Source: Undaria pinnatifida (lineage: Eukaryota > Sar > Phaeophyceae > Laminariales > Alariaceae). From it: a stretch of 64,000 nucleotides of DNA. The stretch's first letter is position 1, and every line of letters begins with the position of its first letter. The position numbers and the translations under genes are program-made. The notes under the pieces are model-generated. The model saw nothing but the letters and a program-made list of their open reading frames with translations, did not search any database and was not told the origin of the DNA. The stretch is taken from the NCBI GenBank assembly GCA_012845835.1, contig JABAKD010000023.1, positions 15,186,702 to 15,250,701 of the forward strand, given 5' to 3'. Of the stretch, positions 26,761 to 61,790 are shown piece by piece.

Positions 26761-26772
26761 CTAGGCCACCCT

Positions 26773-32049: not shown

Positions 32050-32420
32050 TGGAGCTCAGGTGAAAGGTGTAGCTCTGACAAAGGTGGAGCTCTGGTCGCG
32101 AAGCTCGGGTGACGACGAAGCTCTGGTGAAACGTGGAACTCCGGTGAACGTGGAGCTCTGGTCGCGAAGCTCAGGTGACGATGGAGCTCAGGTGACGATG
32201 GAGCTCTGGTGGCAAATCTCAGGTGACGATGGAGCTCTGGTGAAAGGTGGAACTCCGTTGAAGGTGGAGCTCTGGTCGCGAAGCTCAGGTGACGACGAAG
32301 CTCAGGTGACGATGGAGCTCAGGTGGCAAAGCTCAGCTGACGACGAAGCTCAGGTGACGATGGAGCTCTGGTGGCAAAGCTCAGCTGACGACAAAGTTCA
32401 GGTGACAATGGAGCTCTGGT
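32050..32420. repeat. minisatellite with ggtgacgatggagctctgg-type units (A2)
   Basis: Counterpart of 5478-5820 with more units. The plus frame 32060-32638 stays open and gives a peptide with repeats such as VELWSRSSGDDEA and QVTMELWWQSSADD. Periodicity alone explains the open frame. Confidence 0.7.
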
Positions 32421-38677: not shown

Positions 38678-38724
38678 TAAACCAATCACAGAAAAGGTGA
38701 TATGGCAGGGCGATATATTGACAG

Positions 38725-40010: not shown

Positions 40011-40069
40011 CAAGCAACTACACTAACAGCAGAAAATAATGCCTTCAAACCATAAAAAAAATAAAGAGA

Positions 40070-44246: not shown

Positions 44247-45490
44247 CTAACCAATGGGGGGAGTTGGAACGGTAGGGGCACCGCGGGAAGCATTAGAATT
44301 CCGTAGCACCCCACGGGATAGGCTCCCATGCCCATGGCGTTGAAGGCACCACGATCCGGAGACGGCGTTCCGGGCTGTAGTGTAGCGAGCTGGCTGGAGG
44401 TCGATCTTGATCGGGCCGGGGTCGTCTAGGAACCTGATGATGTAGGACCTACCCGGGAAAGGGTCCGGGGGGGTTCGCGAAGAGACGTCCGGTAGTACGC
44501 GGTGAGCGATCTTGCCTAGCCACCAGAGGCCGTCACGTGCCTTGTACCAAACGTGTGCCCCGGAGGGGAGGGTGGAGTTTCTGAAATTGCGAAGCCAAAG
44601 GTCGCGGGGGACCAGGGTGTAGCCGGGGGCGAGGAAGAGTTGGCCTTGAGATCGGGAGAGCTCGCGGTGTGCGGCGCCGATGCGCATCTGGCGGTAGAGG
44701 CGGTTGGTCTGACGGTGTTGTGTCGGCTTCCCGGACCAGTAGAGTAAAATATGGCGCCTGAAGTGTTGGAGGTCGAGCTCGCGTTCCCACGAGGGGCTGA
44801 GGAGTCCGGTCCAGTGGGTCTCGTATAGGACGGCGATGACTCCGCCGCGGCCGCGTACGAGTTGGTGGCCGGTGATTTGCTCAACCTCAAGGCGCTCCGG
44901 TGGTGGTGTGACGTCGTCGAGGGTGACGTGGTAGGGGGGGGACTTGGCAGCGGAAGCTGTGAGGACGTATGTTGTGAGATCCGCTGGTAGGTGCTTGGGT
45001 ATGTCGCTGGTGCCGTCGGGGTTGTGGCAGGGCTTGCACCGTTTGACGGAGACGCGTGGTTTGGACTCCCGTCCCGGAAGGTCTGAAGGTAGATCGAGGA
45101 AAAGCAGCTTGTCTGGAAGCGGCCGGTTGTCGGGGGTGTCGGAGGCTGCAGTCGGGCCCACCGCGAGGATCTTGAAAGGCTCGTTCCAGTTCAACGAGAG
45201 TTTCGTCTTCAGAACGGTTGCGTCGGTGCCCTTCTTGGCACCCTGGCGGATAGTGGAGGCGGAGTTGTAGACCCAGGCCCAGCCGCCAACGGAGAAAGGG
45301 GGGGAGGCGAGGAGGGCGGCCATGATGGGCGCGTTGCGGCGTTGTAGAAGCGAGACGGTGAGTCGGTGGAGCTCTCGGACGAGGGAGTAGGCGCGTTGTT
45401 GCCGGTCGGTGGCAAGGTTGATGTAGACTAGGTGGTCGCGATCCGGGCTGTGGTGGCCGCCGATGTTTTCGGGTCGAAGACCGAGAGCGG
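44247..45490 (-). pseudogene. gypsy integrase C-terminus: GPY/F, chromodomain, Tudor-like module
   Basis: The frame continues the integrase after the copia insertion (the open frame from the Met at 45323 is 358 residues; homologous coding starts upstream, e.g. RQQRAYSLVRELH). LSLNWNEPFKILAVGP near residues 42-57 is the GPY/F module. Residues about 145-196 (LEVEQITGHQL, ALYETHWTG-like strands, SPSWERELDL, RRHILLYW) look like a chromodomain, which guides integration to marked chromatin. Residues about 253-317 (GAHVWYKARDGLWWLGKI, YIIRFLDDPGPIKIDL, ARYTT) look like a Tudor/SH3-type barrel. The ORF ends at 44247. The gene is broken by the copia insertion and probably by a frameshift near it. Confidence 0.75.
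45486..45490. other. target-site duplication, left (AGCGG)
   Basis: AGCGG directly precedes the 5' LTR and is repeated at 51834-51838 directly after the 3' LTR. A 5-bp duplication is typical of copia integrases. Confidence 0.95.
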
Positions 45491-46022
45491 TGTTCGTGAT
45501 AGCGGCATGTATGTATCAACTGTACTGCGGTGAAACTCTGATTGGTTGGTTTGAATAGCAGAACTGTTGATTGTATGTTGTTGTACCAGAATACTCTTCT
45601 TGTGGTGCTACGGTACTTCGGTAGATTGTACATGTGCACGAGTTATACATCGGACCGTAGTGGTGTGTACGGTACGTTGGTATGTCGGTACGTTGGACAC
45701 ATTGACGAGTAGGAAATTTCCTGTAGTGTTGCTAACACGATATAGCTTGTCTCAACGAACAGCCTACCAATAAGTTACAGTTACATACGTTGTGTCACGG
45801 AGGTAAGTTACAGGGATCGTCTCGTGGTATCACCCACGAGCAGTCCCACGGGTATGTACGAGTAGGCACTATGCGAGGAGGTTTAGGTATTCGACTACGA
45901 GCGGTTGTTACTGGGCTGTGGAGAGTTGGCCCACATGACCCACTCCACTTTCTGACCTGTCTCTCCAGACATTGGCCTCTCTAGTATAATACCTTTCTCC
46001 AGAAGCCACTGATTTACCAACA
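45491..46022 (+). repeat. copia 5' LTR (532 bp)
   Basis: Starts TGTTCGTGAT and ends ACCAACA (TG...CA). It differs from the 3' LTR at three positions by eye (near offsets 13 and 202, and near 45976), i.e. about 0.6%, so the insertion is young. It would contain the promoter and the polyadenylation signals of the element. Confidence 0.97.
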
Positions 46023-46032
46023 CGCTATAGCG
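46023..46032 (+). other. palindrome at expected primer-binding site
   Basis: CGCTATAGCG follows the LTR immediately. In the second copia copy the same place (62331-62340) reads CGCTTAAGCG, also a perfect palindrome. A usual TGG-type tRNA complement is not seen here. Confidence 0.5.
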
Positions 46033-46181
46033 CTATCGGTCGACTGCTGTACGACCCCCTGGACTGTGTTCGACGAGACTGTGAGGGCGGCTTGATCAAC
46101 CGGCCTCGTCATGGCTGAACAGGAGGGAGGTGACCCTGCGGCAAACCAACAACGGGTGACCCGCAGGGCTTTGGTGAGAGA

Positions 46182-47795
46182 ATGGATTCCTTAGAGTCTC
46201 GAGTGTCTCAAATGCTGGATATGTTTTCTAACCAGCAGCAAATGCTCCAGACAGTTGTTGAGACACACCAGAGGGAGAATGTGGAGTCCTCTAATTCGCG
46301 TGCTGCGCCGCGAGGCATCGAACTAGAGTCTGGTGTGCACCAGTCGGGTGCCGCCAGTAGGACCGCGGGGAGTACGGGAGGCGATACCCTAGGCTTTGGC
46401 GTGTCCGACATGAGGGTTGGGAGTAGGGGTGTTGTAGACCCAGGCTTGAACCCGCGTGTTTCTGATGAGAATCGTTCCTATGTTCCTGCAGTAAACTTTG
46501 GTTCGGTTGACGGGACTGTTGGTGGGGCTTTAGGTAGCCAGTCCTCTGTTCCGCCCACTACCTCAGCAAGTGAGTGGTGGGGAAAAGTCGCTAGTGGGAA
46601 CACACTGATCCCAGCGGCTGACAGTAGTTCGGGGGAGAGCTTGGGTGGGGGTCTTTTCAAGAAAGTTCCCAAGGCTCCTGCATTTATCGGTGCTGATGTA
46701 TCGTATCCTTCATGGTCGCAGAATTTTCTGCTCAAAGCTCGTCACTACAATCTGAGCGAGCCGTTCACCTGTGATATCGACATTAAAATCGCCGACGTTA
46801 ATTTCGACTTGACCCCTTGGGTAGAGAAGGGATACAGCGTTGGTGTACTGCGTCAGCATAAGATTGCTTGGTGGTTTCTGTTCGACCGCTTGAAGAAAGA
46901 CAGCCACAAAAACATGGCAAGGCAAGCTGGTTCGCCGTATAAGGCTTTTCGCGCGCTCAAGGATCACTTTCTACCGTTGAGTCAGAGTCAAATTCGAGTG
47001 CAGGAAGAAAAACTGAAGTCTCTGCGCATGCGTCCCCACGAGAATCCCACAACTTTCTTTTCATCCATCAGAGAGACGCTTGGTGTGTTGACCATGCTTG
47101 AAGTAACGAAGGATGATCGTGAAGTGTGCAATCTCATGCTGGAAGGACTGTCCCCCGAGTACAAGACTTTGCGTGAGACTCTTGTGGTGTTCTGTTCGAA
47201 TGACCCCTCTTTCATCGAGACCAAAGTGCGTGAGCGGTACCTAGACTTGCAAGCACAGGGTGGTTCTAAGAAGCAGAATAGTGTTGCTCTGGTGTCTAGG
47301 CCTGCGAAGAAGAAGAGTAACTTCAAGAAGCACAACAAGCAGAAGTCTAACTCTGAGTCTGATTCCTCGAAGAAGTCTTTTCAGGGGAGGTGTTACAAGT
47401 GTGGGGAGGTGGGTCACATGAAGCTCGACTGCAAGGCTCGCATCATCCCTCATCCTTTCCAGACTGGAAAGCCCGAGGCCGACGAGAATAAGAGCGGTGA
47501 GCAGTGTGCTATTCCTGATTCGGATCTGGTGTGCAGAAATGGTAGTTACCGCATGAGTGATGACTGCCAAAAGGTGTTGCTTGCAGCATGTCGTAAGGAA
47601 GTGGTCTTGAAGGCGTGTGATGATTTGAGTAGGATGTGGTATGATGTCTCTGGTCTGAAGTGTCTGATGACGTCCCGTGATGATCTGATTATGAGCGCCG
47701 TCAGTAATGATATGATCCTGAAAGCTGTCAACAAGGCTAGATATGTCGAGGATTGGTATGCTGACACAGGTACTTCATATCACATGACTGATTAG
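46182..47795 (+). CDS. copia gag and start of protease
   Basis: A 537-residue frame. Residues about 150-370 (WSQNFLLKARHY, KAFRALKDHF, FFSSIRETLGVLTMLE, MLEGLSPEYKTL) are the capsid-type gag domain of copia elements. CYKCGEVGHMKLDC at about residue 404 is a CCHC zinc knuckle that binds the element RNA. The frame ends in DWYADTGTSYHMTD, whose DTG is the aspartic protease active site. TAG at 47793-47795 then ends this frame just where the next begins. An upstream ATG at 46111 (MAEQEGGDPA...) matches the start of gag in the second copia copy but is out of frame here, so the true start may be lost through a small indel; 46182 is the first in-frame ATG. Confidence 0.9.
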   Translation: MDSLESRVSQMLDMFSNQQQMLQTVVETHQRENVESSNSRAAPRGIELESGVHQSGAASRTAGSTGGDTLGFGVSDMRVGSRGVVDPGLNPRVSDENRSYVPAVNFGSVDGTVGGALGSQSSVPPTTSASEWWGKVASGNTLIPAADSSSGESLGGGLFKKVPKAPAFIGADVSYPSWSQNFLLKARHYNLSEPFTCDIDIKIADVNFDLTPWVEKGYSVGVLRQHKIAWWFLFDRLKKDSHKNMARQAGSPYKAFRALKDHFLPLSQSQIRVQEEKLKSLRMRPHENPTTFFSSIRETLGVLTMLEVTKDDREVCNLMLEGLSPEYKTLRETLVVFCSNDPSFIETKVRERYLDLQAQGGSKKQNSVALVSRPAKKKSNFKKHNKQKSNSESDSSKKSFQGRCYKCGEVGHMKLDCKARIIPHPFQTGKPEADENKSGEQCAIPDSDLVCRNGSYRMSDDCQKVLLAACRKEVVLKACDDLSRMWYDVSGLKCLMTSRDDLIMSAVSNDMILKAVNKARYVEDWYADTGTSYHMTD

Positions 47796-50700
47796 CTTAC
47801 TCCGGAACGCTAGACTTGGTATTTGTGACTGCTGACAGTGAGTTCTCCGTGGAATTGAAGAACGTATTGTACTCTCCCAACTTGGGGTATAATCTCTTTT
47901 CTCCGAGTGCAGAGTTTGATGGTGAGTCATGGAATGGTCTTGGTGGTCCTAATGGTGTTATGACTGCATTCAATGGACAAGTAACTTTTCAGAACTTCGA
48001 TGGCATGCTGATTGCGTCTGCGTATCGCCTAGGAGAAGCCTCTGTTGGTACGGTGTTGGCTGCTCTCACTCCCGCCAACCCCAAGCATGAAACCACGATG
48101 GATATCAACGATTTCCACAATATTTATGCACATTCGCACGAGGGTCTGCTTCGCACTACTGCAAAGCGATTAGATACCAAGTTGGTTGGTGACATGCATG
48201 CTTGTTCAGGGTGTTCGATGTCGAAGGCTATTCGGAAAGGAATCGTTCGGGAAACTAAAACTCGATCGGATAAAAAGTTGGGCAGAGTTTTTGGTGACCT
48301 GGGAGGAAGGAAGGACATTGCGTCCGTAGGGGGAAAACATTACCCCATGATTGTGAAGGATGATTTCACGAGACGTGCATGGCTGTATTTCCTGAGAAAT
48401 AAATCAGACGCTGGCAGTGCTTTCCGGAGTTTTCTTGCGAGTGTGCGTGCTGATGGTGTCCCGTCATTGGTTGAGATTGTTAGGTCTGACAATGGTGGGG
48501 AGGTTTTCGGGGGGGAGTTTGCATCTGTGTGCAACGAGCTTTTGATCAAACAAGAGTTCACACCGGCTTATAGTCCGCAATATAATGGTGTTGCAGAGCG
48601 TGGGCTGGGATTGATAGAGGAGGCCGCGATGGCGGCTCGTATTCAAGCTAAAGTTCTTTTTGGGCATGTACAGTTACCTAAGACTGATAAACTCTGGGCT
48701 GAGGCTATGCACTGGGCTTGCGAAGCGATGAACCACACTGCGTGTTCTGCTAACCCTGAATCCAAATCGCCGTATGAAATGTGGTATGGTGAACCTCGTC
48801 CCGCTAGACCGTATCCGTTTTTGAAGCCCGCCTACTGTAGGTGGCAGCGACCGTCAAAGCTGCTGCCGAAGGGTGAGAGTTGTTTCTATGTCGGTCCTTC
48901 GAGAGACCACCCGCGTGATTGTCATAGAGTACTTACGAGGGCTGGTACTATTCAAGAAACGAGGGATGTGACGTGGGAGGTGCTGCCGTCACAGCTCCCT
49001 CCGCTGCAACCTTCTTTGCCGATAGAGGTAGCAGAGGAGGGAGGGGAGGATAGTGACGACGATGTTGAAACCGAGATATGGCCGCTTGTGGGAAGAGGAG
49101 TCGCTCACACACTTTTGAAACGTGATGCCGTGCCCTCTGGTGCGGGAGTCGAGGAGGTTGAGAGTGTTGGCGCAGGTAGTATAGGCCCGTCCTTTTCTGT
49201 TCCATCTTCCCCTGCTGAACCGTCTGCCCCCGTGAACATTTCTTCTGGTAGTGTAGCTCCTTCTGTGTCTTCGCCTGTGAATGACGGGGAGGGTCAGGGA
49301 GGGCAGGAATCAGCAGAGGTAGAGATGGGGGATCTGGGAGGAGATGATGAGGTAGAGTCGATGGGGCAGGGAGGGCATGATGATGAAGAGTCGATTGGGT
49401 CGGGAGGACTGGTAGAGGCGGAGGCATCCCCTCCAGCCGCTCGTCGTCCGCGGCATGTGGCCGAGCTTGCTGACTTTAATACTTCCGCGCGTGAAAATGA
49501 TGAAGTGAGAGAAGGTAAGACTCGCGCGCAAACTCGTGCAGTCAACCAGCAGAGTGTACCCGGCCTCATGGCCACCCTAGGACCCATCTTCGCGACAGAG
49601 GTCGTGTACTCATTGTTGTCAGAGCAGAGAGCAGGTGATGAGACGGAATTGCCGAAAGAACTGGTTCAGGATGTAGAATCGGAGCCTGGTAGTTATCAGG
49701 AAGCCCAGCGTTCGAAGTACGCTAAGATTTGGGAAGGAGCCAGGTCTGCCGAAATTGAAGGCTTGATAAGAGCAGGAACGTTCACGTTGGCAGTAAAAGT
49801 CCCGATAGGCTGTAATGTGATTGATGCTAGATGGGTTTTCAAGTGGAAAGCAGACGAAACAGGAAAGATAGTGAAGGCCAAGGCTAGGCTTGTAGCGAAG
49901 GGCTTCAAGCAGAAGTATGGTATGGATTATCGTGAGACATTCTCGACTACCGCAAATGTTGCATCTTTACGATTGCTGATAGTGTTGGCGTGTTTGTACA
50001 ATTTGGAATTACTCCACTGGGATATTGAGCAAGCATTTGTTCAGTCGGAATTGGATCACGAGGTGTTCATGAAGTTGCCTCCTGGCTGTGGGTCGATGTC
50101 AGGAAAGGTTGTCCGTTTGAACAAGAGTTTGTACGGATTGAAGCAGGCTTCTAGGACATTTTACAAGAGGCTGGTGTCGGAACTGAAGAGGATTGGTTTT
50201 GAGCAGTCAATGTCTGACCCCTGTGTCCTGCGTTTCATGATGGGAGACGAGGTATTGGGGATAGTCGCGATCCACGTGGATGACATTTTGTATGCAGGAA
50301 GTAAGAGCCTTGCCAAGGTGGTTGTGGAAGCACTACGTGACTCTCTTCCTACGAAGGACTTGGGGGAGGTCAAGTTCTTTCTAGGTTGTGAATATATTCG
50401 CGACCGTGAGGCTGGTACGATTGAGATTTCTCAGGAAAGTTATATCAGGAGTGTTCTCGAGAGATTCAATATATGTCGCACCAGCTCGATCCCTGCTTCC
50501 CTTGCCAATGATAACAGGTCCGTGATGGAGGATGAGGGGGCAGGAGATGTGCCGTTCCGAGAGGTGGTGGGGAGCCTGATGTGGATCGCCAGCCAGACAA
50601 GGCCCGACATCGCGAATGCTGTGCGGGCGGTGGCGAGGCACTCTCACGAACCAAAGAGGAGCCACTTGAAGGCAGCTCAGAAGATTCTCAATTATCTTCT

Positions 50701-51226
50701 GGAAACGGTGCATCTGACTTTGAAGTTCAAGCAGGATAGTTCGGTAGACGCAGGCACGTTGGTGTATGTAGATGCTGACTTTGCAAGTAGGGCCACTGAC
50801 CGTAGATCAGTTTCGGGTGCGATGGTTTTCGTGGCGGCGATGCTTGTAGTTTGGATTTCTAGGACGCAGAAATGCGTTTCACAGTCAACTTCAGAAGCAG
50901 AGTATCTTGCGATGGGAGATGGTGTAAAGGAGGCTCTGTTTGTAAACGGAATGCTTCAGTTCCTGAGGCCTAGTGCGAAGCCTCGTAAGATAGATGTCCT
51001 TGAAGACAACGATGGTGCGATTGCGCTCCCAGAGAACCCGCTGAGCTCGAGTAGGAGTAAGCACATCGATGTGAGGCACCACTTTCTTAGGAATCTGACC
51101 GAGGAGGGTGTGATCGAAGTCACCCACGTCCCCAGCGAGAAACAACACGCGGACATCCTCACGAAGGCGTTGCCGAGAGATCTTTTTGAAGGTCACCGCG
51201 ACTTTGCACCTGGTATCAAGAAGTAG
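47792..51226 (+). CDS. copia pol: protease end, integrase, RT, RNase H
   Basis: The frame is open from 47792; the 1136-residue count starts at a TTG at 47816, so there is no own ATG and it must be read as a continuation of gag. ELKNVLYSPNLGYNLFS is the copia protease end. The integrase has an HHCC finger (NIYAHSHEG, ACSGC) and D161, D225, E261 as catalytic triad. RT motifs are DARWVFKWK, LLHWDIEQAFVQSEL, LYGLKQASR and HVDDILYAGS (near residue 820). RNase H begins with YVDADFAS (near 983) and includes STSEAEYLA, RSKHIDVRHHFLR and KQHADILTKALP. Joining to gag requires a -1 shift near 47792. No classical slippery heptamer is seen, so mutation is the simpler reading. Confidence 0.93.
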   Translation, partial: LAYSGTLDLVFVTADSEFSVELKNVLYSPNLGYNLFSPSAEFDGESWNGLGGPNGVMTAFNGQVTFQNFDGMLIASAYRLGEASVGTVLAALTPANPKHETTMDINDFHNIYAHSHEGLLRTTAKRLDTKLVGDMHACSGCSMSKAIRKGIVRETKTRSDKKLGRVFGDLGGRKDIASVGGKHYPMIVKDDFTRRAWLYFLRNKSDAGSAFRSFLASVRADGVPSLVEIVRSDNGGEVFGGEFASVCNELLIKQEFTPAYSPQYNGVAERGLGLIEEAAMAARIQAKVLFGHVQLPKTDKLWAEAMHWACEAMNHTACSANPESKSPYEMWYGEPRPARPYPFLKPAYCRWQRPSKLLPKGESCFYVGPSRDHPRDCHRVLTRAGTIQETRDVTWEVLPSQLPPLQPSLPIEVAEEGGEDSDDDVETEIWPLVGRGVAHTLLKRDAVPSGAGVEEVESVGAGSIGPSFSVPSSPAEPSAPVNISSGSVAPSVSSPVNDGEGQGGQESAEVEMGDLGGDDEVESMGQGGHDDEESIGSGGLVEAEASPPAARRPRHVAELADFNTSARENDEVREGKTRAQTRAVNQQSVPGLMATLGPIFATEVVYSLLSEQRAGDETELPKELVQDVESEPGSYQEAQRSKYAKIWEGARSAEIEGLIRAGTFTLAVKVPIGCNVIDARWVFKWKADETGKIVKAKARLVAKGFKQKYGMDYRETFSTTANVASLRLLIVLACLYNLELLHWDIEQAFVQSELDHEVFMKLPPGCGSMSGKVVRLNKSLYGLKQASRTFYKRLVSELKRIGFEQSMSDPCVLRFMMGDEVLGIVAIHVDDILYAGSKSLAKVVVEALRDSLPTKDLGEVKFFLGCEYIRDREAGTIEISQESYIRSVLERFNICRTSSIPASLANDNRSVMEDEGAGDVPFREVVGSLMWIASQTRPDIANAVRAVARHSHEPKRSHLKAAQKILNYLLETVHLTLKFKQDSSVDAGTLVYVDADFASRATDRRSVSGAMVFVAAMLVVWISRTQKCVSQSTSEAEYLAMGDGVKEALFVNGMLQFLRPSAKPRKIDVLEDNDGAIALPENPLSSSRSKHIDVRHHFLRNLTEEGVIEVTHVPSEKQHADILTKALPRDLFEGHRDFAPGIKK

Positions 51227-51301
51227 AAGTCTGAGTCGTTTTGTTTTTGTTTTTGTTTGATATGTATTTGGTCTGGTAGATACAACAGTCCCTATGGAGG
51301 G

Positions 51302-51833
51302 TGTTCGTGATGGCGGCATGTATGTATCAACTGTACTGCGGTGAAACTCTGATTGGTTGGTTTGAATAGCAGAACTGTTGATTGTATGTTGTTGTACCAG
51401 AATACTCTTCTTGTGGTGCTACGGTACTTCGGTAGATTGTACATGTGCACGAGTTATACATCGGACCGTAGTGGTGTGTACGGTACGTCGGTATGTCGGT
51501 ACGTTGGACACATTGACGAGTAGGAAATTTCCTGTAGTGTTGCTAACACGATATAGCTTGTCTCAACGAACAGCCTACCAATAAGTTACAGTTACATACG
51601 TTGTGTCACGGAGGTAAGTTACAGGGATCGTCTCGTGGTATCACCCACGAGCAGTCCCACGGGTATGTACGAGTAGGCACTATGCGAGGAGGTTTAGGTA
51701 TTCGACTACGAGCGGTTGTTACTGGGCTGTGGAGAGTTGGCCCACATGACCCACTCCACTTTCTGACCTGTCTCTCCAGACATTGGTCTCTCTAGTATAA
51801 TACCTTTCTCCAGAAGCCACTGATTTACCAACA
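51302..51833 (+). repeat. copia 3' LTR (532 bp)
   Basis: TG...CA ends and same length as the 5' LTR, with three differences by eye. It follows a purine tract GGAGGG. Confidence 0.97.
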
Positions 51834-51838
51834 AGCGG
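51834..51838. other. target-site duplication, right (AGCGG)
   Basis: Second copy of the 5-bp duplication at 45486-45490; gypsy integrase sequence continues beyond it. Confidence 0.95.
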
Positions 51839-52440
51839 GAGGCGTGGTAGGCGGCCGATGTGGATCTCGTTGGGCGCCAGTCCGGTGGCGGCGTTGACAG
51901 AGTTGTTGTAGGCCGCCGACATGTGCGGCAGTAGTACGTCCCAGTCGGTTTGCTTCTCGTTGCCAACCATGGAGAGCATCTGGGCCAGTACATGGTTGAC
52001 CCGCTCGACGCCGCCGTTGGTGCAGGGGTGGTAGACGCTGGTGTTGACCTTGCGGATGCCGACGCGGTCGTAGACGATGTTGCCAGCTTGGAGGTGAATT
52101 GTTGACCATTGTCGGAGAGGAGCGTCACCGGGCACCCCCAGAGAGGGATGTACTCGTTGAGCAGGATGTCGGCAGTTCCGGCGGCCGTGAAGTTCTCTGC
52201 CGAGACAGCGAACATGTCGGCCCGGCGGCTGAAACGTTCGGTAAATAAGAGGATGTGCACGTTCCCGCGCGGTGTGAGAGGTAGGGGCCCGAAGTAGTCG
52301 ACGCTGACGGTGATGCCAGGGCCGTTGGGTAAAGGGAGGGAGAGCGTCGGCCAGCGAATGGTGTGTCGGGAGGTCTTGCGCGCCTGGCAGTGAAGGCAGC
52401 GGCGGATCCACCAGCGGGCGGAGACGTCCATGCCGATCCA
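51839..52440 (-). pseudogene. gypsy integrase catalytic core
   Basis: Right after an in-frame TAG (52441-52443) the minus strand continues with the second half of the zinc finger (CLHCQARK), then ITVSVDYFGPLPLT (first catalytic Asp) and LLSDNGQQFTSKLA (second Asp). Near 52083 the frame shifts, probably by one lost base in a GG pair, and continues with NIVYDRVGIRKVNTSVYHPC and NGGVERVNHVL (catalytic Glu), then NEIHIGRLPRLP up to the copia insertion at 51838. The D,D,E triad is preserved across the breaks. Confidence 0.85.
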
Positions 52441-55400
52441 CTAGTATAACCGTGCCAGCATGCGAACCGTCCGGGTAACTCCAAGGTGTAGGGAGGTGTC
52501 GGCGTGGCATGTGTTCAGCACCCAGGGGCGCATCAGCATTGGAACGTAGACGCGGGGGGGATAGGGTGCAGGTGGCGGGAGGCTGTTCCCGGGTTGAGAT
52601 GTGGATGGTCGTTGGACCAGGAGGGCTGTTTCGTCGTCAGTGCGGTGGAGTCTGCCTTTGGCGGCAAGTGCAAGGACGTCGGAGAGTAGTGGTCGCTGGG
52701 CCGAGGGGATGGAATCCAAGAGGTCAGCCGGCGGCGGAGAAGGGGAGTCCAACGATAGGAAGCGGATGGCGGCGTAGCACACGGGCTCTGCGCGTTGTTC
52801 GCGCGCCCAGTCTCTGTAGGTGTAGCGCTCAACGCGGGCGAGGAGGTGGGGGTCGATATTGAGGTCAACAACAGGATCCGGGAGCAGAAGTGGCGGTGTT
52901 GATGGGGATGTCGGAGAAGTCGTCGAAGGAGGGGCCGGTCTTGGTGCGGTTGGTGCGGGTGACGCGGGCGGCGTGGGGACGGCAGCTGGAGGCGTTGTCG
53001 TCGGGGGAAGCCTTGGTTGGGCCCCGGCCGGGGGCGTGTGCGGTCGACGGGTAGATGTAGATCTTCTGGATACGGTTGGTTTCGGACGGCGTCCGAACCC
53101 ATAGTCTGCGGTAGGTCGGGGGTTTCCCGCGGCGGCGGCGGCGCGATGGCGGGTCCGTGAAGAGATCAGACCAGAAGGCGGTGGTTCCGTGGCGCCAGTG
53201 GTGGACAGCGGGGAGACGACGGGTGGCCTGGAAGCCGAACCAGGAGGAGCGCCGGTGTTCACGGCAGCATTCTCGGAGCTGACGAGCGGCCTGGCGGTGG
53301 AGTCCCGGGTCGAAATAGGCCCGACGAAGTTGTTGGGGATGCCGTGGTGCTCCATGCGTGATCCCAGTAGGCGGAAGTCGGTATAGTCGTCGGCGGTGAA
53401 GGGAAGAGGCTGGATTGTTGGAATGGGTCTTGAAGGGGGGGACACGAGCCCACCCAAGCCGATACCCGGTGTAGGCGGCTCGTTCGGTGCGAAGCCGCAG
53501 GGGCGGATGAGGTAGATGCCAACAGTGTCCGGGCCAGTGAGGCGGTTGCGTCCGGTGCGGTTGGCGTCGGTGGCTGGTTGTGGTAGGCGTGAAAGGAAGT
53601 CGGCGTTGCCGTTGGCCGTACCTTTGCGGTACTTCAGTGTGTAGTTGTAAGCCGAAAGGAACTCGAGCCAGCGCCGGACGCGAGCGTTGTGCTCACCAAC
53701 CTTGGCGATGTTCTCGAGCGCCTTGTGGTCCGAATAAATTTCGAAACGGGTGGACCACAGATGCCCGCGTAGTCGCTTGATCGCCCAAACGATGCTGCCG
53801 GCCTCGAGGTCGAGGGGTGTCCATGAACGCTCGGAGTCCAGAGTGGCGCGGCTGATGTAGATTATCGGGCGGACGGAGCCGTCAGGTTGTTCCTGCTCGA
53901 GAGTCGCTCCAAAACCGTCGATGCTAGCGTCGCAGTAGAGGCGGAAAGGGCGGGAGTCGTCGGCGACGGCGTCCCAGTCGGGGTAGACGAGGATCGGTGG
54001 CTCGGTAAGTTCGTGGAGGATGGCGCGGATGGTGGCTTCTATGGCGGGGGTGAAGTCGAAGGTGGCGCCCTGCTTGAGTAGAGCATTGATGGGGCGAAGG
54101 CGTCTGGAAAGGTTTGGTAGGAACTTGCCGTAGTAGTTGATACCTCCGAGGAGTGATCGCACCTGTTTCTTGTCGGTGGGCATGGGCCTTTTGGTGAGGG
54201 CGGCGACCTTCTCGGAGTTGGGGCTGTAGCCGCCAGCGGAGATGGTGTGCCCCAGGAAGTCGGCGGTTGTGGCGCCAATTTTGGCCTTGGAGGGAGAAAG
54301 TTTGAGGTGGTGCTTACGGAGGCGACCAAAAAGGGCTCGGATGTTGGCGACGTGGTCGGTGGGGTCGGGGTCGAAGACGATGATGTCGTCGAGGTACGCG
54401 GCGACGCGTTCCAAGCCTTTAATGACCTCGTTAATAACCTTAATGAACCAATCGGGGGAGGCACTGCTGCCGTGCGGCATCACAAGCCACTCGAAGAGCC
54501 GGTCTGGCATGCAAAACGCCGTCGAAGGAATGGTATCCTTGTCGATGGTGATTTGGTGGAACGAGGAAACCAAGTCGAAGAGGGAGAAAATGCGCCCTTT
54601 TCCTAAAGAATCGAGGACCTCGTCAACGCGGGGGATGGAAAGCTGTCCGAGGGAGCTGATGGCGTTCAGCTTCTTATAGTTGATGGTGATGCGGACACCG
54701 CTGTCCTTCTTCGGGATGGCGACCATGGGGCTGGAGTAAGGTGAGGTCGAATGCTGAATCAAGCCGGCGGCCAGGTACTGGTCGAGGACGGCGTCGGCCG
54801 TTTTGGTAAGGATGGGGTTGATCCTGTACGGGCGGGAGGTAACTGGTTCGCTGTCCGGAGGTACGGTGATCTTGAACGGCATCAATGAGCACGAGCCGAA
54901 GTCGGTCTTGGAGGTGGAGAAGACGTCCGGAAACTCGCAGAGGACATCTCCAAGGCTGTCGATCACCGATGGGGACCATCCGGAACCGTGGAGGTCGAAG
55001 ATGATGTCGCGCAGAAGCGGCGGCAGACGGTCCCAGAGGTTGAGGAAGTTAGTTCGTTGATCGGTGTCGAGGCGTGCAAGGAGCTGTGGGCACGGGGCTG
55101 TCGGTGGGTACTGGGGATTGGCTGGTGGGGGGTTCTCGCTGGCCACAGGGATGTTGTCGTGTAGGGCATGTACGCCCGGCGTAGGCGGAGGGGCTGGGGG
55201 GTCCAAAGAAGGGTGCCCAAGGGTGGCTAGTGGTACTTCCACCAGCGGGGAGAGGGAGGTTCCGAGGAGGTCGCCCGGTTCGAGATCGGTTGATCCTGAC
55301 AATGGGATAGTGTGGTGTCCGTCGGAGACGAAAATTACCTTGTCGGTGAGAAGGTCCTCGCGGGGGAGCATGTTGACCATGTACTGCCCGGTAAACGCCG

Positions 55401-56325
55401 GGGCGCCTGACTGGCGCACGAGGTTGACCTTGATGAGCTTCGGCGAGGAGGAAAGCGAAATAACTTTCGTGCCGGCGAACCGGAGGTGGTAGACGTCGTC
55501 GGTGTATCGGTCGTCGGGAATGAAGGCGGAGGCCCTGTTGGTGTCGTGGTGGCGGAGGGAAAGTTCGCCCAGGGTCGGTTGGGGGGGCTGGTGTGGCAGC
55601 TGGGGCTGTCGCGGGAGCGTGGTATACGAGCGTCGCTCGAAGCGCATCCAGCTATCTCGCCCCAAGAGGATGGGATGCTGCATAGTTCCTGCAGGAACGA
55701 CGCAAGCCCATACTGCCAGGGCGGCGGTGGGGGTTTGGTGGTGCTTAAACTGGATGCTTAAACGGATGGAAAAGGAGGTGGAGAGGGGAGTCGAGGTTCC
55801 GAAACCTCCCCATGAACGAGGTGAGTTATGTCGCTCGCACTCATCCGTTGCTGACCGGGACGCCTTCAGTTGTTCCACGGCGGCGGCGGTGATGAACGAC
55901 TGAGGGGAGCCTGTGTCGAGCAGCGCCACGAGTTTGCAGCGTTTGGCGGCGGTAGGGCCGCTGTGGACTAGTACTTCGGTCGTGAACGACGCGTCGTCGA
56001 CAGTTAGGATGCCGCTTGTAAGGCACGGTCCATGTTCTGGTATCGTCGGCGCCGTAGTAGCGGGGTATAGGTTGGTTGCGCCGTCGACGGCGGAGACCCG
56101 AGCGAAGTGGCTGCTGGGCAAGGCGTCCGGGGTGGAGGGTGGCAGAAGGAGTCCAAGCGGGGTACTCGGCGTTTGTCGAGGGGGGGGGGGGCTTGTCTCG
56201 TGGATGCCATCTGCGGTGGGGAAGACCCGGCTGGCGTCGGTGGTGGTGGGTGTTGGCTCAGCGGAGCAGGGGGCGAGGGCGCTTGTGGCGTGGAGGCTTG
56301 AGCGAAGGCGTTCGCGGACGTCCAT
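52441..56325 (-). CDS. gypsy pol: protease, RT, RNase H, integrase zinc finger
   Basis: A 1294-residue open stretch of the long gag-pol frame; the first Met shown lies inside the end of the NADAR domain, so it is not a natural start. Protease: LVALLDTGSPQSF with DTG at 137-139. RT: MPFKITVPPDSEPVTSRPYR, YSSPMVAIPKKDSGVRITIN, FSLFDLVSSFHQITI, and AAYLDDIIVFD near residue 640. RNase H: FRLYCDASIDGFGATL near 790, TPLDLEAGSIVWAI, YSDHKALENI. A Pro/Thr/Ser-rich linker with LGGLVSPPSRP follows, then the first part of the integrase HHCC finger (CHADTSLHLGVTRT). TAG at 52441-52443 falls where YYW is usual in gypsy integrases, so a Tyr codon probably became a stop. Confidence 0.92.
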   Translation of the reverse strand: MDVRERLRSSLHATSALAPCSAEPTPTTTDASRVFPTADGIHETSPPPPRQTPSTPLGLLLPPSTPDALPSSHFARVSAVDGATNLYPATTAPTIPEHGPCLTSGILTVDDASFTTEVLVHSGPTAAKRCKLVALLDTGSPQSFITAAAVEQLKASRSATDECERHNSPRSWGGFGTSTPLSTSFSIRLSIQFKHHQTPTAALAVWACVVPAGTMQHPILLGRDSWMRFERRSYTTLPRQPQLPHQPPQPTLGELSLRHHDTNRASAFIPDDRYTDDVYHLRFAGTKVISLSSSPKLIKVNLVRQSGAPAFTGQYMVNMLPREDLLTDKVIFVSDGHHTIPLSGSTDLEPGDLLGTSLSPLVEVPLATLGHPSLDPPAPPPTPGVHALHDNIPVASENPPPANPQYPPTAPCPQLLARLDTDQRTNFLNLWDRLPPLLRDIIFDLHGSGWSPSVIDSLGDVLCEFPDVFSTSKTDFGSCSLMPFKITVPPDSEPVTSRPYRINPILTKTADAVLDQYLAAGLIQHSTSPYSSPMVAIPKKDSGVRITINYKKLNAISSLGQLSIPRVDEVLDSLGKGRIFSLFDLVSSFHQITIDKDTIPSTAFCMPDRLFEWLVMPHGSSASPDWFIKVINEVIKGLERVAAYLDDIIVFDPDPTDHVANIRALFGRLRKHHLKLSPSKAKIGATTADFLGHTISAGGYSPNSEKVAALTKRPMPTDKKQVRSLLGGINYYGKFLPNLSRRLRPINALLKQGATFDFTPAIEATIRAILHELTEPPILVYPDWDAVADDSRPFRLYCDASIDGFGATLEQEQPDGSVRPIIYISRATLDSERSWTPLDLEAGSIVWAIKRLRGHLWSTRFEIYSDHKALENIAKVGEHNARVRRWLEFLSAYNYTLKYRKGTANGNADFLSRLPQPATDANRTGRNRLTGPDTVGIYLIRPCGFAPNEPPTPGIGLGGLVSPPSRPIPTIQPLPFTADDYTDFRLLGSRMEHHGIPNNFVGPISTRDSTARPLVSSENAAVNTGAPPGSASRPPVVSPLSTTGATEPPPSGLISSRTRHRAAAAAGNPRPTADYGFGRRPKPTVSRRSTSTRRPHTPPAGAQPRLPPTTTPPAAVPTPPASPAPTAPRPAPPSTTSPTSPSTPPLLLPDPVVDLNIDPHLLARVERYTYRDWAREQRAEPVCYAAIRFLSLDSPSPPPADLLDSIPSAQRPLLSDVLALAAKGRLHRTDDETALLVQRPSTSQPGNSLPPPAPYPPRVYVPMLMRPWVLNTCHADTSLHLGVTRTVRMLARLY

Positions 56326-56754
56326 AAGTACCCGACCTAGCAGGTTCCGACCGCGCCAGCGCGCCCTTTTGCAGGCAAACGGGTGGTCGGCCCTATAGCC
56401 GATGCCCCAGACGAGGTCGTACGGGCTGGCCTCAGCGATGTGCTTCTCGCCAGTTGCCTCGAGCGCTTGTTATAGGTCCGGATGTTGGCTGAACTTGCAG
56501 AAGTTGGTGTTGAGGACGATGTCGTAGCGGTGTCGCTCCCAACACTCCTGGTCGAAGCCGGACACGGTGCGTCCAAGAGATTTTTGATCGGCGGGGTCGG
56601 GGGTGATTCGGATGCGAAGCTCTGTCGCGGTGTCACCGAAGAGCGCAGCCTTCTACGCCATCATCATCTGTTCGGCGCAGTTGTACGTGACGCTTTCGTA
56701 CTCGATGTCGCACAGGTACCACTGTGAGAAGACGGACGAGGAGTTCCAGAAGAA
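56298..56754 (-). pseudogene. NADAR (YbiA-like) domain within gypsy gag-pol
   Basis: In the gag-pol frame, about 150 codons between the spacer and protease match the NADAR family (YbiA of E. coli is the known member). Visible: FFWNSSSVFSQWY (FY..FSN-like start), SVTYNCAEQMMMA..KA (the EH..Q..K-like helix with Glu), DPADQKSLGRTVSG (the A..LGR motif), DQECWERHRYDIVLNTNFCK (Trp helix), LEATGEKHIAEASPYDLVWG (the LL.TG...L.E.S..D..WG motif) and RGRNLLGRVLMDVRERLR (the N.LG..LM.VRE end). The four positions I recall as important in YbiA (Glu, Trp, Asp, Trp) are all kept. TAG at 56653-56655 and TAA at 56470-56472 interrupt it. NADAR enzymes act on ADP-ribose or NAD-derived substrates; the role here is inferred. 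Confidence 0.85.
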
Positions 56755-57708
56755 ATGGGAAGAATCCGGGGGGTCCGCGATGTCATGTGCTGGTGAGGGC
56801 GAGTCGTCGGAAGGGTGTTGCAGTGGTGGGTGTCGGCGATTGTTGGTAATGTCGCCGTGTGGCGTTGTCGGGGGTAGAGTCAGGTCCGATCGGGTGGTGC
56901 TGACTTGAACGCCCGAGTTCGCGGGGGAATTGCTCGGCAAAGCCGAGGTACCGGGAGAGTCCACGCGGTGGCGCGCACGCTGGGCGGGGATACCCTGAAA
57001 GGTCCTGTCTTCAGGCGTTTGGAGAGCAGGGCTGTACTCTCTAGGGCATGCAGATCCTGTGGCCCGAGTCCATGCAATGCGTGAAGCCGGCGAGGATGAC
57101 GGGGCAGGGTGCTCAGAGCATGTCCTGGTCGACTGTGATCGCGAGTCTTCCATCTGTACGACGGGGCTGTCCCTCGAGCTCAGGGACAGTGGTGCTGTCA
57201 ACACCGTGGCAGCGAGTGGGAAACCGTCATTCGCGGGCCCAACGTTGCCACTAAAAGGGCGCACGTCCTGTGACGAGCGGGTGAGCAGTGGCCAATCTGG
57301 GGTCGAGGCGGACTCAGGGGGCGATGGCCCGGTAGACGAAACAGCCCTTTCGTGTGAACCGGAACCGCTGGTAGTCGTAATCGTCGAGACTTCGCCCAGG
57401 TTAGCAATGTCTGGAATCTCAGCGACAGTCGGCAGGTAGCGTTGCACATCGCGGAAAGGCGTCGAGTGGAGCATCCCAGTAGGGCTCGACGTCTTGGCCT
57501 CCTCCCGCCCACACCTCAAGGCAATCACTGGAACAAGAGGATCAGTGCTTGAACAAGTGGTTGGGGTTCGGGCTGGGGTAGGGGGGGGGCGTAGGGGGAC
57601 AGGGGGAAGGGGGTCGTGACGCACGTGGTGTACTCGGGCGTCTTGAGACCCGGTCTTCGCAGCAAGTGCTGTTGGCGGAGATGCTGCAGTTGCTCCACCA
57701 CCGGCTCT
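56755..57708 (-). pseudogene. gypsy Pro/Ser-rich spacer before NADAR
   Basis: The same frame continues from the stop TGA at 57709-57711 down into NADAR. The roughly 320 residues are Pro, Ser and Thr-rich without a recognisable fold, with one more ordered phrase: VPVIALRCGREEAKTSSPTG followed by MLHSTPFRDVQRYLP. That phrase is the part conserved in the defective copy A2 (34740-35300), which suggests it was under constraint. It may be a linker or a processing region between Gag and the enzymes. Confidence 0.7.
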
Positions 57709-57711
57709 TCA

Positions 57712-58416
57712 GTTGGTGCGAAAGGTGCCCGGTTGTCGTTGATTGGGGTTGGTCGCGTTATTATTGCCGATCTGCATGTTCGGCGGGGCGGCGGCTGGGG
57801 GGACATAGGTCGCCGGGTCGTGTACCGTCATGGGTGTCGACTGCGATGCGGCGGCGGCGCGACGATGTTGAAATTGCTGCCCTTGCGACTGTCGGTTGCC
57901 GTTGTCGTGGGAGCGGCTGTTGTCGTGCGAGCGGCCGTTGTCGTGGGAGCGGCCGTTGTTGTGGCGTCTGTTGTTGGAGCGTCCGTTGTTGCCCCGGTGT
58001 TGGTTGGAGCGGTCGTGGTTGTAGCGGTTGTTGTTGTTGTTGGCGCCCCGGTTGTTGTTGTGGTAAGTGCCCCCACGGTTGTCGTTACGGTGGGCGTAGC
58101 GGTTGGAGTTCCGGTCGACGTTGTGCTCGTACTGGCCCCGGCGGTAAGAACGCATCCGTTGTTGCCATTGGCGGTAGGCGTGGCCGCCATCGTTTAGCTG
58201 GCCAAGTGCAGGGTTGAGGATGCCGGATATGTTGATGATGTCCTTGGGGCAGGTCTTCATGCTGTGATCCGTACCGTTGCAGTTAAGGCAATGTCCACCG
58301 TGAGCGCGTAGGGCTTGAGCACGGGCCGAGCTCGTGAGGAGCGGAGTCAGCAGCGGGGGATCCTGCGTACTAAACGTTGTCGTCACCATGTACACCTCCT
58401 CGTAGTGTCGGAGAGG
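57712..58416 (-). pseudogene. gypsy nucleocapsid-like segment with zinc knuckle
   Basis: In frame with gag after a TGA at 58417-58419. It contains CLNCNGTDHSMKTC, a CX2CX4HX4C zinc knuckle, followed by a long Asn, Arg, His and Gly-rich tail (HDNGRSHDNSRSHDNG-like repeats, YHNNNRGANNNNNR) that would bind RNA and could be disordered. The segment ends at TGA 57709-57711. The natural end of Gag may be this second TGA, with Pol expressed by readthrough in the same frame; that is a guess from the shared frame. Confidence 0.8.
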
Positions 58417-60456
58417 TCAGTCGGACTCGTCCTCGCAGAATTGGTCACTGTCGGCCTCGGATACGTTCATGATTAGTGGGTTTGACGCGGAACCCATCGC
58501 ACGAGTGCCGGGGCCACGCGTGTTGGTGTGTTGCGCAGGAGGTGGTGGTGAAGAGGAGTACGTAATATGCCCGCCGAAAGAGGTCGCATGAAATCCTTGG
58601 CCGTTGATAGCTGGCGTCTTGTTCGTTGCCAGTACCTCGAAGGCCGACCACATGTCCGCAACCGTGACGAACGGCTGCGAGGTCGTCATGAGGCGCCCAG
58701 GGTAGAGAGTTGGCATCAGCGACGGGTACTGACTGCTGGTAACTCCGCGTACGATTTCGACGACCATAGCGTCACTGGGCTTGAAAATCTTCTCCGTGCC
58801 CTGTGCGAGCGAGACACGCTCCTTGAACGCTCGCAGGAACGTGGAAAAGTCAGTTGAGCTCGGTACGCCGAAGGAGTGTAGCTGTTGGAAGGCGCGCCCC
58901 TGGTCGCCGTCGTCGAAGTGGTTGGTTGGGAGCTGCAGCAGCTTCCTAAAAGCCGACGGTCCGGTTCCGTCGATGCCTAGTTCCTGGACAACTTGGACGA
59001 AGAAATCGTCGATGAGACGGGTTAGGGGAGACGCCATGACCTGCGGATACCCGAGAGCCTTTCGGAAGCATTTGTGGAGGGTTCTGTGCCATCCCTTAAC
59101 CCACGGGGGTGTGTCGAATGATTGCTTTCCGGACTCGTCGCAGATTGTGAGGATCTCCCTCATCGCCAGTTTGACGCTGGCGAGGAACATGCCCAGGTAG
59201 ACGGCGGCGTCGCTGTTGGCCGGGAAGGGTAGGCGTACGAGTGGTGTCAACTTCCGCATGTCCACCACGTCGTACTGGCGCGTAACGGCATGATGTTCGT
59301 CGTCCGTCATAGGTCCCGATCGGGATGGCGTTGTCCTGGTGGGCGGGGTGGGGACCGTCGCCGGCGTGGGCGCGTCCGTGGTGGGCTGGGGCGGTGTCGT
59401 AGCAGTGGGCGCGGCCGTCGTAGGGGGGGGGGTGGGGCGTGCAGGGGCGTCGGGACGGTACTCTGTCTGGTTCCACACGTAGCCGCGGCCGGCGTTGTTG
59501 TGGAAGTGACGAAGGGCGAGTACCAGGGTGTTGGTGGCCCTGATGAGCTCGTCGGATGCGCTAGTTGTGGCGGCACGGGCCTGGACGAACGCGACCGATG
59601 GTTCGCTATCGGGGGCCAATAAATCCCACAGGCGGTGTGCCGCCGATGAGACATCAGAAAAAGCTGCTCCGCGTGTTCTCCGCATGCAGCGGAGGGTGGC
59701 GTCGCAGAAATCCCAATCAATAGCCTCGCGCGGCAGAACCGTCGGTCGTGAGGATGCCAAGGGGGTGGGGGAGGGCAAGGACTGGGCAGGCGGTGGCACC
59801 TGGTAGGTTGTGGTAACCGGCGGGGCCGGCGGTGGCAGCTGGAAAGTAGTGGCTCCAGGCGTCTCGGCGGGCGCATGGGTTGGCGCTACCCGCAGCGGCT
59901 GTGCCCGCAAGGACACAGGCACTGAAGGTTGCGTGGGGGAGGGGAGCGGCTGCGGTTGGAACAGAGTGGCCGCGGTCGCACCTGTAGCCGTATATGACGG
60001 CGAGAATGGGTTCGTGGAAAGGGTTGGGGATGGGTGGAGCCTAAGCAAGAGCTCGGCGCTCTCCTTTAGTTGGAGAACCAGCTGTTCGTGGTGAGCTTGC
60101 AGGGCTGCGCGGCGCTCGCGAAAAACCGCGCGGTGGCCCTGGGTGTTCCAAGGGTCCGAGATTGGGCTTGCAGAGTCCTGCGAAGTGGTCTCAGGCTTTA
60201 CAGTGGGCTCGCGCCCGGCACCGGAGGTGCCTGCTCCCAGGGGAGGGGGGCCCGGCGTGGCCGTGTGGAGCGTCAAGTCGCCCAGAATGGATTCCACGTT
60301 TGGGATGTCGTCCATGTTTGCGCGGGCGGTCCTGGCGGTGTACCGCTCCTCGTGGGAGCTGGGGGAATCAGGGGTGTGGGCCCCAGCCATGTTGGTGTCG
60401 GAAGCGTATTTCTCAGCCATGTCGATGTCGAGGAAAGGTGGGAGGGACGCTTGCAC
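58417..60456 (-). CDS. gypsy gag polyprotein
   Basis: 679 residues from the ATG at 60454-60456 to TGA at 58417-58419; a second Met lies at residue 13. Residues about 1-250 are Pro/Ala/Thr-rich with one helical segment (HRAVFRERRAALQAHHEQLVLQLKESAELLLRL). Residues about 430-620 form the ordered gag part (VRLPFPANSDAAVYLGMFLASVKLAM, GWHRTLHKCFRKALGYPQV, FRKLLQLPTNHFDDGDQGRAF, FSTFLRAFKERVSLAQGT), consistent with a retrotransposon capsid. The zinc knuckle follows in the same frame beyond the stop. The only support for gag identity is position and character; the fold was not tested. Confidence 0.8.
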   Translation of the reverse strand: MQASLPPFLDIDMAEKYASDTNMAGAHTPDSPSSHEERYTARTARANMDDIPNVESILGDLTLHTATPGPPPLGAGTSGAGREPTVKPETTSQDSASPISDPWNTQGHRAVFRERRAALQAHHEQLVLQLKESAELLLRLHPSPTLSTNPFSPSYTATGATAATLFQPQPLPSPTQPSVPVSLRAQPLRVAPTHAPAETPGATTFQLPPPAPPVTTTYQVPPPAQSLPSPTPLASSRPTVLPREAIDWDFCDATLRCMRRTRGAAFSDVSSAAHRLWDLLAPDSEPSVAFVQARAATTSASDELIRATNTLVLALRHFHNNAGRGYVWNQTEYRPDAPARPTPPPTTAAPTATTPPQPTTDAPTPATVPTPPTRTTPSRSGPMTDDEHHAVTRQYDVVDMRKLTPLVRLPFPANSDAAVYLGMFLASVKLAMREILTICDESGKQSFDTPPWVKGWHRTLHKCFRKALGYPQVMASPLTRLIDDFFVQVVQELGIDGTGPSAFRKLLQLPTNHFDDGDQGRAFQQLHSFGVPSSTDFSTFLRAFKERVSLAQGTEKIFKPSDAMVVEIVRGVTSSQYPSLMPTLYPGRLMTTSQPFVTVADMWSAFEVLATNKTPAINGQGFHATSFGGHITYSSSPPPPAQHTNTRGPGTRAMGSASNPLIMNVSEADSDQFCEDESD

Positions 60457-61317
60457 TGGAGTCGAGATTGGTGGGGTGGAAGTGTAGAGGAAGGTTGGAT
60501 CCAGGCTTGGATCTTGGGGCGGCAGCTACAATCACCAACAAACCGATCTAGAGGGAGAAAAAAAAAAGACAGCAAAATACAAAATGGAAGTAAGGGCGTA
60601 CGGTAGGGGGGGGGATGTGCCACGATTTTAGTGCTCGTCCAAGGGTATATGTTTATGTGGTTTGGAGAGTATCTGACCAGAAATCAGACGTCTCGTTTTT
60701 GTCAGACGACAGTCATACTCACGTCACTTGAGCGATACCTATGAGACTGAATTGGGCAGAGCTCCGTCTGAACTGCAGAATTCCTCTGTTATGGTATCAG
60801 GGCGTGGCAATTGTGGGACGTTGGCAGTGCAAAACCGATCGCGCGGGTACGATTGATCAGTACCTAAAAAGAGCGAAGGGTGAAAAAAAAAAAATTGCAG
60901 CATGCCGGCACCATTTGGTGGGCACACAAAATACCGGGCGATCGAAAGGCGGGGTGTTCGTCGTTACGTGACAAGAAAAAATGGGCAGCATGCCGGCCGT
61001 TTCGGGGGGGGGTTCGCGTAGTCCGGTACGTCGTGGCGTAACGCAAGGTATCGTAAAGGCAGCTTAAATGACATCAGACCCCGGTACGTGAAACAAAGAA
61101 AAGCATACCGATCAGCTACCATGGGGAAGGAGCTCGGGTACGCTAGTCTGTTGCGACTATAGTTATAATTTGTCCAGCAGACAGTTTTCAGTTTTAGGAC
61201 ATTTTTATGCACGGGCGGCATCGAACATGTTCTAAATTTGAGTAGCATGCAGCTGCTGTTGGTGATATGCTGGACAAACAAGGAAAGAAAAGAATAAAAG
61301 AAAAAAAATAATAAAAA
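60457..61317. other. gypsy 5' side and unassigned sequence
   Basis: The gypsy leader should start here, but I found no match to the LTRs at 1-180 or 42147-42316. A plus-strand tggtatcagggc at 60792-60803 resembles the initiator-tRNA primer site of other retroelements, without a recognisable LTR beside it. Several A-runs and G-runs are present; no gene. Confidence 0.4.
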
Positions 61318-61790
61318 AATAAAACAGTTGTTGACTTTCAAGCTTGCGCAGCAACGTTACAATTTTGAGCAGCATAGACCCTGCTTCATCGTAAAGCTGA
61401 GGCGGAAAAAGCGTTGAAGTAGCAACAGGGGGGGGAATTTGGGCATCATCTACCCTGTATCACCAAAAACGGGGAAAAGTAAACTCGAGGGTGACAAAAT
61501 TTGGGCAAATCTGAGCAGCGTCTACTCCACTTCATGGGAGATGGAACAGATGCGAGGGAACTTTAATGCATTTTGCTTTTTCGAGAGAAAAAAGAAAGAA
61601 AAAAAAAATTGCAGCGTAGAGCCGGCTATGGGGTAAAAAGCTGGCCAGACGCGGGGGGGGGGGGGACAATTCAACATTAGACGGCGTAGGGCTCGGGCAC
61701 TACAAATAAACTGACAAAATGCTCTTACAGCAGAATAGAGAAGCATATGGGCATGATAGAGCCCATATGTGGCTCAAAACTGGTGAGAGG
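61318..61790. repeat. degenerate repeat family R3, copy 2
   Basis: Matches 40081-40530 with indels: ttgacttt/ctcaagcttgcgcagcaac, gagcagcatagaccctgctt, cttcat...gagatgg, catgatagagcccatat. The copy stops exactly where the second copia LTR begins, so it served as its target. Confidence 0.7.

Follow-up and report, generated by a model that had tools for sequence, protein, structure and literature searches.

What is a NADAR (YbiA-type) domain doing in the polyprotein of a Ty3/gypsy retrotransposon? The question is raised by a 64,000-nucleotide stretch of the brown alga Undaria pinnatifida (contig JABAKD010000023.1, positions 15,186,702 to 15,250,701; hereafter the window), in which a reading of the letters alone, made without database searches (the sequence-only reading), had noticed such a domain inside a gypsy polyprotein. 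Profile searches bear out that claim: the minus strand of the window encodes, at 56281–56760, a complete NADAR domain, which forms part of Pol in a Ty3/gypsy element that is now dead. Below we describe its active site, its recurrence in other copies, the selection acting on it, and the function it may have.

The NADAR domain and its active site

The domain was searched as a 160-residue query in which both in-frame nonsense codons (56653 and 56470) were masked as X. Pfam profile PF08719 matched it with an E value of 6.6e-50 and 170 bits (cut-off 35.1), and the match spanned profile positions 1–163 of 163 with 151 residues aligned. At E ≤0.01 only NADARs were matched by sequence in the PDB, namely 8bau (3.9e-18) and 2b3w, the E. 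coli YbiA (2.2e-05). The frame of the domain is also that of the gag side (58420–60525 and 57712–58416) and of the reverse transcriptase (RT) and RNase H (52441–56469). The sequence-only reading had described a single frame running from gag through the domain into protease and RT; the frame is indeed shared, but the run is not uninterrupted, because a conserved TGA at 57709 ends gag. The same stop recurs in the near copies L089 and L090, and in a second subfamily copies L004–L006 have an equivalent TGA, which follows a similar end, RQPGTFRTGN. Therefore, TGA 57709 is the end of gag, conserved in two subfamilies, and not a product of decay. Because gag and pol share a frame with a conserved stop between them, the NADAR domain lies near the N-terminus of Pol, and because pol continues in the frame of gag after the TGA, it may be reached by stop readthrough or restart rather than by a frameshift.

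The active site was compared over 33 element rows, which comprise 24 database Pol proteins, 3 Undaria copies (the window copy included), and 6 fragments that a tree placed with elements. Eleven residues are named around the ADP-ribose in 8bau (PMC11543638). The window copy keeps eight of these unchanged (E43, K50, K75, R79, W89, E125, D130, and W133), and each of the eight is at least 95% alike in the 32 other rows. With the window excluded, 41 of the 150 columns are alike at a level of 95% or more, and 9 of the 11 named columns are among them (hypergeometric probability 1.5e-4 over 32 rows, in a test whose alignment columns are not independent). An earlier version with 8 positions had given 1.8e-5; those positions were chosen after an alignment had been seen, and the test was redone with all 11. 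In the YbiA subfamily the catalytic Glu stands at the E125 place, which is occupied by Asp in BC4488 and His in phage (PMC11543638), and we found Glu there in the window copy and in every one of the 32 rows (of 33) that have a residue at this place. The K50 equivalent is Lys in 33/33 rows, window included, and the E43 equivalent is Glu in the window and in 27 of the 28 rows with a residue, the others being one Asp and five gaps. The structure was modelled for P0136, an element-type homologue, rather than for the window copy; the model reached a predicted local distance difference test (pLDDT) score of 93 and matched 8bau best in the PDB (7e-12), followed by 2b3w (1.7e-08), which is the YbiA fold.

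Recurrence in copies and relatives, and signs of selection

NADAR elements are abundant in Undaria, and many copies are still open. A genome profile search covering 511,146,479 bases in 68 contigs gave 150 scored matches to PF08719 out of 1454 candidates, and by our count 22 of the 150 lie in open frames of at least 2000 amino acids. With the window RT as query there were 151 genome matches, of which 80 copies were fetched in a non-random manner, the closest first and then a spread. Copies whose RT is about 87–96% identical to that of the window are called subfamily A here, and a large group at about 74–77% is called subfamily B; the NADAR domains of subfamily B are 44–49% identical to that of the window. 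As judged by tblastn, NADAR lies upstream of RT in 58 of the 80 fetched copies.

Database relatives tell a similar story. Among those examined (P0004–P0095, 92 proteins of the best 120 listed), 33 have a whole or partial NADAR as detected with our own profile, and about 55 of the other 59 start inside or past the domain. P0017, P0044, P0049, and P0061 have long N-termini without NADAR. The N-termini of P0017, P0044, and P0061 are unrelated and look like fused gene models; P0049 (1377 amino acids) has 262 residues ahead of the protease side, in which no NADAR was matched, and is perhaps a relative that lacks it. The counts in both sets agree with the earlier claim that the domain belongs to a gypsy lineage, and they refute the insertion of a host NADAR gene by chance in one gypsy copy. 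Copies lacking the domain, which the sequence-only reading would have taken as a sign of such an insertion, do exist (22/80). However, in 21 of them the similarity to a full copy starts in the final bases of the domain (L018) or beyond it, mostly at scattered points, and in the remaining one (L041) NADAR was removed by an internal deletion. Because the break point of L010, L019, and L034 is the same (about 1418–1424), as is a stretch upstream of it, a small internally deleted group may exist.

Selection was assessed as the ratio of nonsynonymous to synonymous change (omega) by the NG86 method, using stop-free copies only and 2000 codon bootstraps. For NADAR, omega was 0.51 in subfamily A (14 copies; bootstrap interval 0.26–1.06; 82/2000 at or above 1) and 0.43 in subfamily B (16 copies; 0.26–0.72; 4/2000). 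The values for protease were 0.35 in A (15 copies) and 0.51 in B (15 copies, interval up to 1.00), and those for RT were 0.36 (16 copies) and 0.46 (17 copies), respectively. Between A and B (272 pairs, 33 copies), the proportion of synonymous differences was 0.77, and no A–B ratio was computed because synonymous sites are saturated; the proportion of nonsynonymous differences was 0.38 for NADAR, 0.34 for protease, and 0.15 for RT. From these nonsynonymous differences and the omega values, constraint on NADAR is about equal to that on protease and weaker than that on RT. In 13 pairs with an RT synonymous distance of 0.1–0.3, omega was 0.41 for NADAR, 0.52 for protease, and 0.69 for RT, values on which decayed copies weigh. 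It seems that selection maintains the domain in the Undaria elements. Purifying selection, which the sequence-only reading had put forward as a check, is suggested by omega below 1 in recent copies of both subfamilies, qualified by the upper end of the interval for A.

Architecture and decay of the gypsy element

All parts of the gypsy element with an assigned strand lie on the minus strand. The gag frame (57709–60525) contains an extra nonsense codon at 58417, which is a sense codon in L089, and a CX2CX4HX4C zinc knuckle at 58249–58290 that was seen by eye and has no Pfam match. A Pro/Ser/Thr-rich Pol leader (56761–57708) fills the sequence from the gag stop to NADAR. Beyond the domain lie the aspartic protease region (55450–56079), with a DTG at 55909–55917 identified by eye and aligned across copies but without a Pfam match, then the RT (54241–54717; RVT_1, 5e-24), the RNase H (53647–53961; RT_RNaseH, 4.4e-28), and the first part of the integrase (51833–52554; 68–73% by tblastn with P0024). 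The integrase match to rve (1.4e-06) scores 28.9 bits, under the curated cut-off of 32.6. The Ty3/gypsy order of protease, RT, RNase H, and integrase is therefore present, with the protease recognized by motif and the integrase below the curated cut-off.

The integrase is interrupted by a young, nested Copia element on the plus strand (45489–51836), whose long terminal repeats (LTRs; 45489–46025 and 51300–51836) are 99.3% alike and which is flanked at either end by AGCGG, as noted by eye. Because this element sits between the parts, the remainder of this gypsy Pol, with the end of the integrase and the C-terminal tail, resumes at 44256–45479 (tblastn with P0004, 84%; with P0024, 57%). No chromodomain was matched by Pfam in P0024, in P0009, in the window tail open reading frame (ORF) 44887–45642, or in 44247–45515. 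A candidate gypsy terminal repeat at 61294–61790 pairs with 40052–40531 at 76.8%, and the pair has no clear TG..CA ends. The sequence-only reading had called the copy dead on account of two nonsense codons. Dead it is, and the damage goes further: besides the two nonsense codons in NADAR there is one in gag and one in pol (52441, read through in relatives such as P0009), a frame break in the integrase near 52080, and the Copia insertion.

Several other features were seen in the window. A second Copia-like stretch begins at 61785, and a tandem array of units of about 288 bases (38712–40010) adjoins the candidate terminal repeat; similar sequence stands upstream of several truncated gypsy copies. 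A degenerate second piece of the pre-NADAR leader lies at 34747–35286 (74% like 56979–57557). Farther away are a 7.3 kb repeat (169–7456 and 26749–34053, 91.6% alike; no Pfam match in the four ORFs scanned), a long interspersed nuclear element (LINE)-type element on the minus strand (21749–25498) with a 1249-amino-acid open frame containing endonuclease and RT domains, and a GIY-YIG domain (3.6e-07; 10577–11539, minus strand) that we guess might be part of a Penelope-like element.

Origin and possible function of the element NADARs

The sequence-only reading knew of no described Ty3/gypsy lineage of this type, but one has been described. PMC12477816 reports Gypsy elements of Ectocarpus, for example Gypsy-12_Ec32, that form a lineage whose Pol has NADAR at its N-terminus; the NADAR–Gypsy kind is already published, and the Undaria copies are new members. 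Among the open-licence papers listed in our searches there was no other report of NADAR in retrotransposons. Both sets of elements have the domain at the N-terminus of Pol, and the Ectocarpus protein P0009 and the window Pol share 72% identity across residues 520–960. Compared with that lineage, the elements treated here come from Undaria, a conserved gag–pol stop is described for them, the B-subfamily NADARs are further from the window domain than their RT is from the window RT, and Pfam matched no chromodomain in P0024 or P0009. The Tx1 LINEs of Crassostrea gigas, as described in the same article, are retroelements with a YbiA-family NADAR too, but they are non-LTR elements and carry it in ORF1. 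The DarT1-linked antitoxin, the Phytophthora NADAR 8bau, and E. coli YbiA have their fold and catalytic residues in common with the element NADAR, which differs from these hydrolases in being part of a retroelement Pol, in Y84F, and in a changed D86. Nor was a partner toxin seen: among the window ORFs that were scanned by Pfam there was no DarT-type toxin gene. New here are the Undaria copies, the conserved in-frame gag–pol stop, the active-site conservation, the omega values below 1, the stand-alone algal NADARs that share a lead motif with element domains, and P0246, a distant Gypsy protein described below.

The origin of the domain was approached through a NADAR protein search. In the best 120 of 4866 matches, the named non-brown-algal proteins are bacterial (Nannocystis, other Myxococcota, and Planctomycetes) and 54–61% identical to a B-subfamily domain. 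Short NADAR-only proteins from Ectocarpus (two), Pylaiella, and Scytosiphon (P0126, P0129, P0141, and P0146) are among the matches listed, and a fifth, P0130, groups with these four and is probably also a brown-algal stand-alone NADAR. By eye, 4 of the 5 have an N-terminal Cys/His motif. Short algal NADARs and element domains have in common a lead motif, [F/Y]-D-x-x-x-[E/T]-Y. As a pattern it matched 7 of the 120 listed proteins, all of them algal or grouped with elements, and P0124, P0146, and P0225 have the motif by eye; the pattern found no match in the remaining 110. Subfamily A is without it. Because stand-alone and element NADARs share this motif, a common ancestry in brown algae is suggested.

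Trees, in which 58 NADAR loci from viral contigs were included, allow one origin of the element NADARs. In a FastTree analysis of 292 rows, the 27 element rows did not come together, and their common ancestor spans 153 rows. A more careful tree of 88 chosen rows split the element NADARs among bacterial proteins on a weak backbone. A single clade was not rejected by the approximately unbiased test, either for 22 element rows (p-AU 0.327) or with the 5 short algal proteins added (0.485); a constrained tree for a clade without subfamily A was 7.2 log units better (p-AU 0.613), and the clade of element and algal NADARs had a p-AU of 0.221 when a second tree, with 94 rows, was used.

P0246 came from a protein search that returned 14 proteins. 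Its 1919 amino acids contain RT, RNase H, and integrase, followed by Macro (7.3e-19) and NADAR (4.9e-52) domains. The macrodomain is closest in the PDB to those of PARP14 and MacroD1, and the C-terminal tail looks chromodomain-like by eye. Over RT and RNase H, P0246 is 31% identical to P0024. Grouping it with the element rows gave a p-AU of 0.143, and a separate NADAR capture is favoured because of the RT distance and the place of the domain. A viral-contig scan with P0246 found two loci, both matching its NADAR part. No published description of a macrodomain–NADAR retroelement was found in our searches of open-licence papers. The long NADAR proteins P0248 and P0249 had PDB matches only to NADARs, and P0244, a predicted Haliotis (mollusc) protein of 1608 amino acids, has three NADAR domains that are 94–99% alike.

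The window holds a decayed copy of a brown-algal Ty3/gypsy element with a bacterial-type NADAR at the start of Pol, and we give an even chance to the view that this domain would act as an ADP-ribosyl hydrolase that cleans the nucleic acid of the element. The domain would be released from Pol by cleavage and then work inside the virus-like particle, removing ADP-ribose, most likely from guanine, off element RNA or cDNA, such that reverse transcription or integration would not be blocked. Retroviral dUTPase, which removes dUTP, is a nucleic-acid-protecting enzyme encoded near the protease of a retroelement; NADAR may follow the same logic, although the fold and chemistry of dUTPase are unrelated to it. 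The activity and the target are what we infer beyond the domain itself, its place, its recurrence, its catalytic residues, and the signs of selection. NADAR and YbiA proteins that were tested hydrolyse guanosine-ADP-ribose in vitro (PMC11125620), and reversal of ADP-ribosylation on element DNA or RNA, the purpose proposed in the sequence-only reading, would fit both the active site and P0246. The active site, the selection signal, and the pairing with a macrodomain add weight to this mechanism.

Several points weigh against this hydrolase reading. Y84 is Phe and D86 is replaced in 33/33 element rows, R93 is kept in only 17/33, the conserved positions are conserved in the superfamily in general, and a good part of the 33 rows are closely related to one another. 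The omega interval for NADAR in subfamily A reaches 1.06 in stop-free copies, and the domain changes faster than RT between subfamilies (0.38 versus 0.15 nonsynonymous differences). P0246 is a single sequence from one 8569-base contig. Moreover, YbiA and phage NADARs did not protect cells from DarT1 despite their activity in vitro (PMC11125620), so the target cannot be read from the fold, and riboflavin intermediates are described as another substrate of E. coli YbiA (PMC11543638).

Other explanations were considered. It is unlikely, but the least so of these, that the element NADAR acts on small molecules or RNA ends, such as NAD-derived metabolites, riboflavin intermediates, or NAD-capped RNA. 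Both PMC11125620 and PMC11543638 assign YbiA-type NADARs a role in making riboflavin, and the authors of the Ectocarpus study suggest processing of RNA intermediates (PMC12477816); however, the macrodomain that neighbours NADAR in P0246 suggests a macromolecular target bearing ADP-ribose, and four E. coli and phage subtypes act on guanosine-ADP-ribose (PMC11125620). Somewhat less likely again is a reader, which would guide particles or integration through binding to ADP-ribosylated nucleic acid or chromatin. The same pocket residues would serve binding, PMC12477816 gives Gypsy-12_Ec32 as its example of NADAR and also of a putative chromodomain at the C-terminus, and the tail of P0246 fits as well, but the invariance of the catalytic Glu at E125 and the position of NADAR at the Pol N-terminus of the brown-algal lineage, away from integrase, argue for something other than a reader.

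A passenger without a role, propagated by copying, is improbable. It could account for the NADAR-less copies, for the break point and upstream stretch common to L010, L019, and L034, and for P0049 if that is a relative without NADAR. Against it stand the conserved active-site columns, omega below 1, and the occurrence of NADAR at the same place in Undaria and Ectocarpus elements; furthermore, the NADAR-less copies except L041 are also without the upstream part, within the stretch fetched. The stand-alone brown-algal NADARs (P0126, P0129, P0141, P0146, and probably P0130) would suit a chance insertion of a host gene, whose probability is close to nil given the recurrence described above.

The macrodomain–NADAR polyprotein suggests that the theme extends beyond one lineage. 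It is possible, albeit doubtful, that retroelements captured ADP-ribose erasers more than once as a counter-defence, as NADAR at the start of Pol in brown algae and as macrodomain–NADAR after integrase in P0246. If so, eukaryotic hosts would ADP-ribosylate the nucleic acid or proteins of retroelements, a defence not yet described, and the elements would erase the marks. If the domain of the hydrolase reading is an active eraser, brown algae are predicted to mark foreign nucleic acid with ADP-ribose, in parallel to bacterial DarT. This activity can be tested directly, given the many open copies in Undaria and the stand-alone NADARs of algae.
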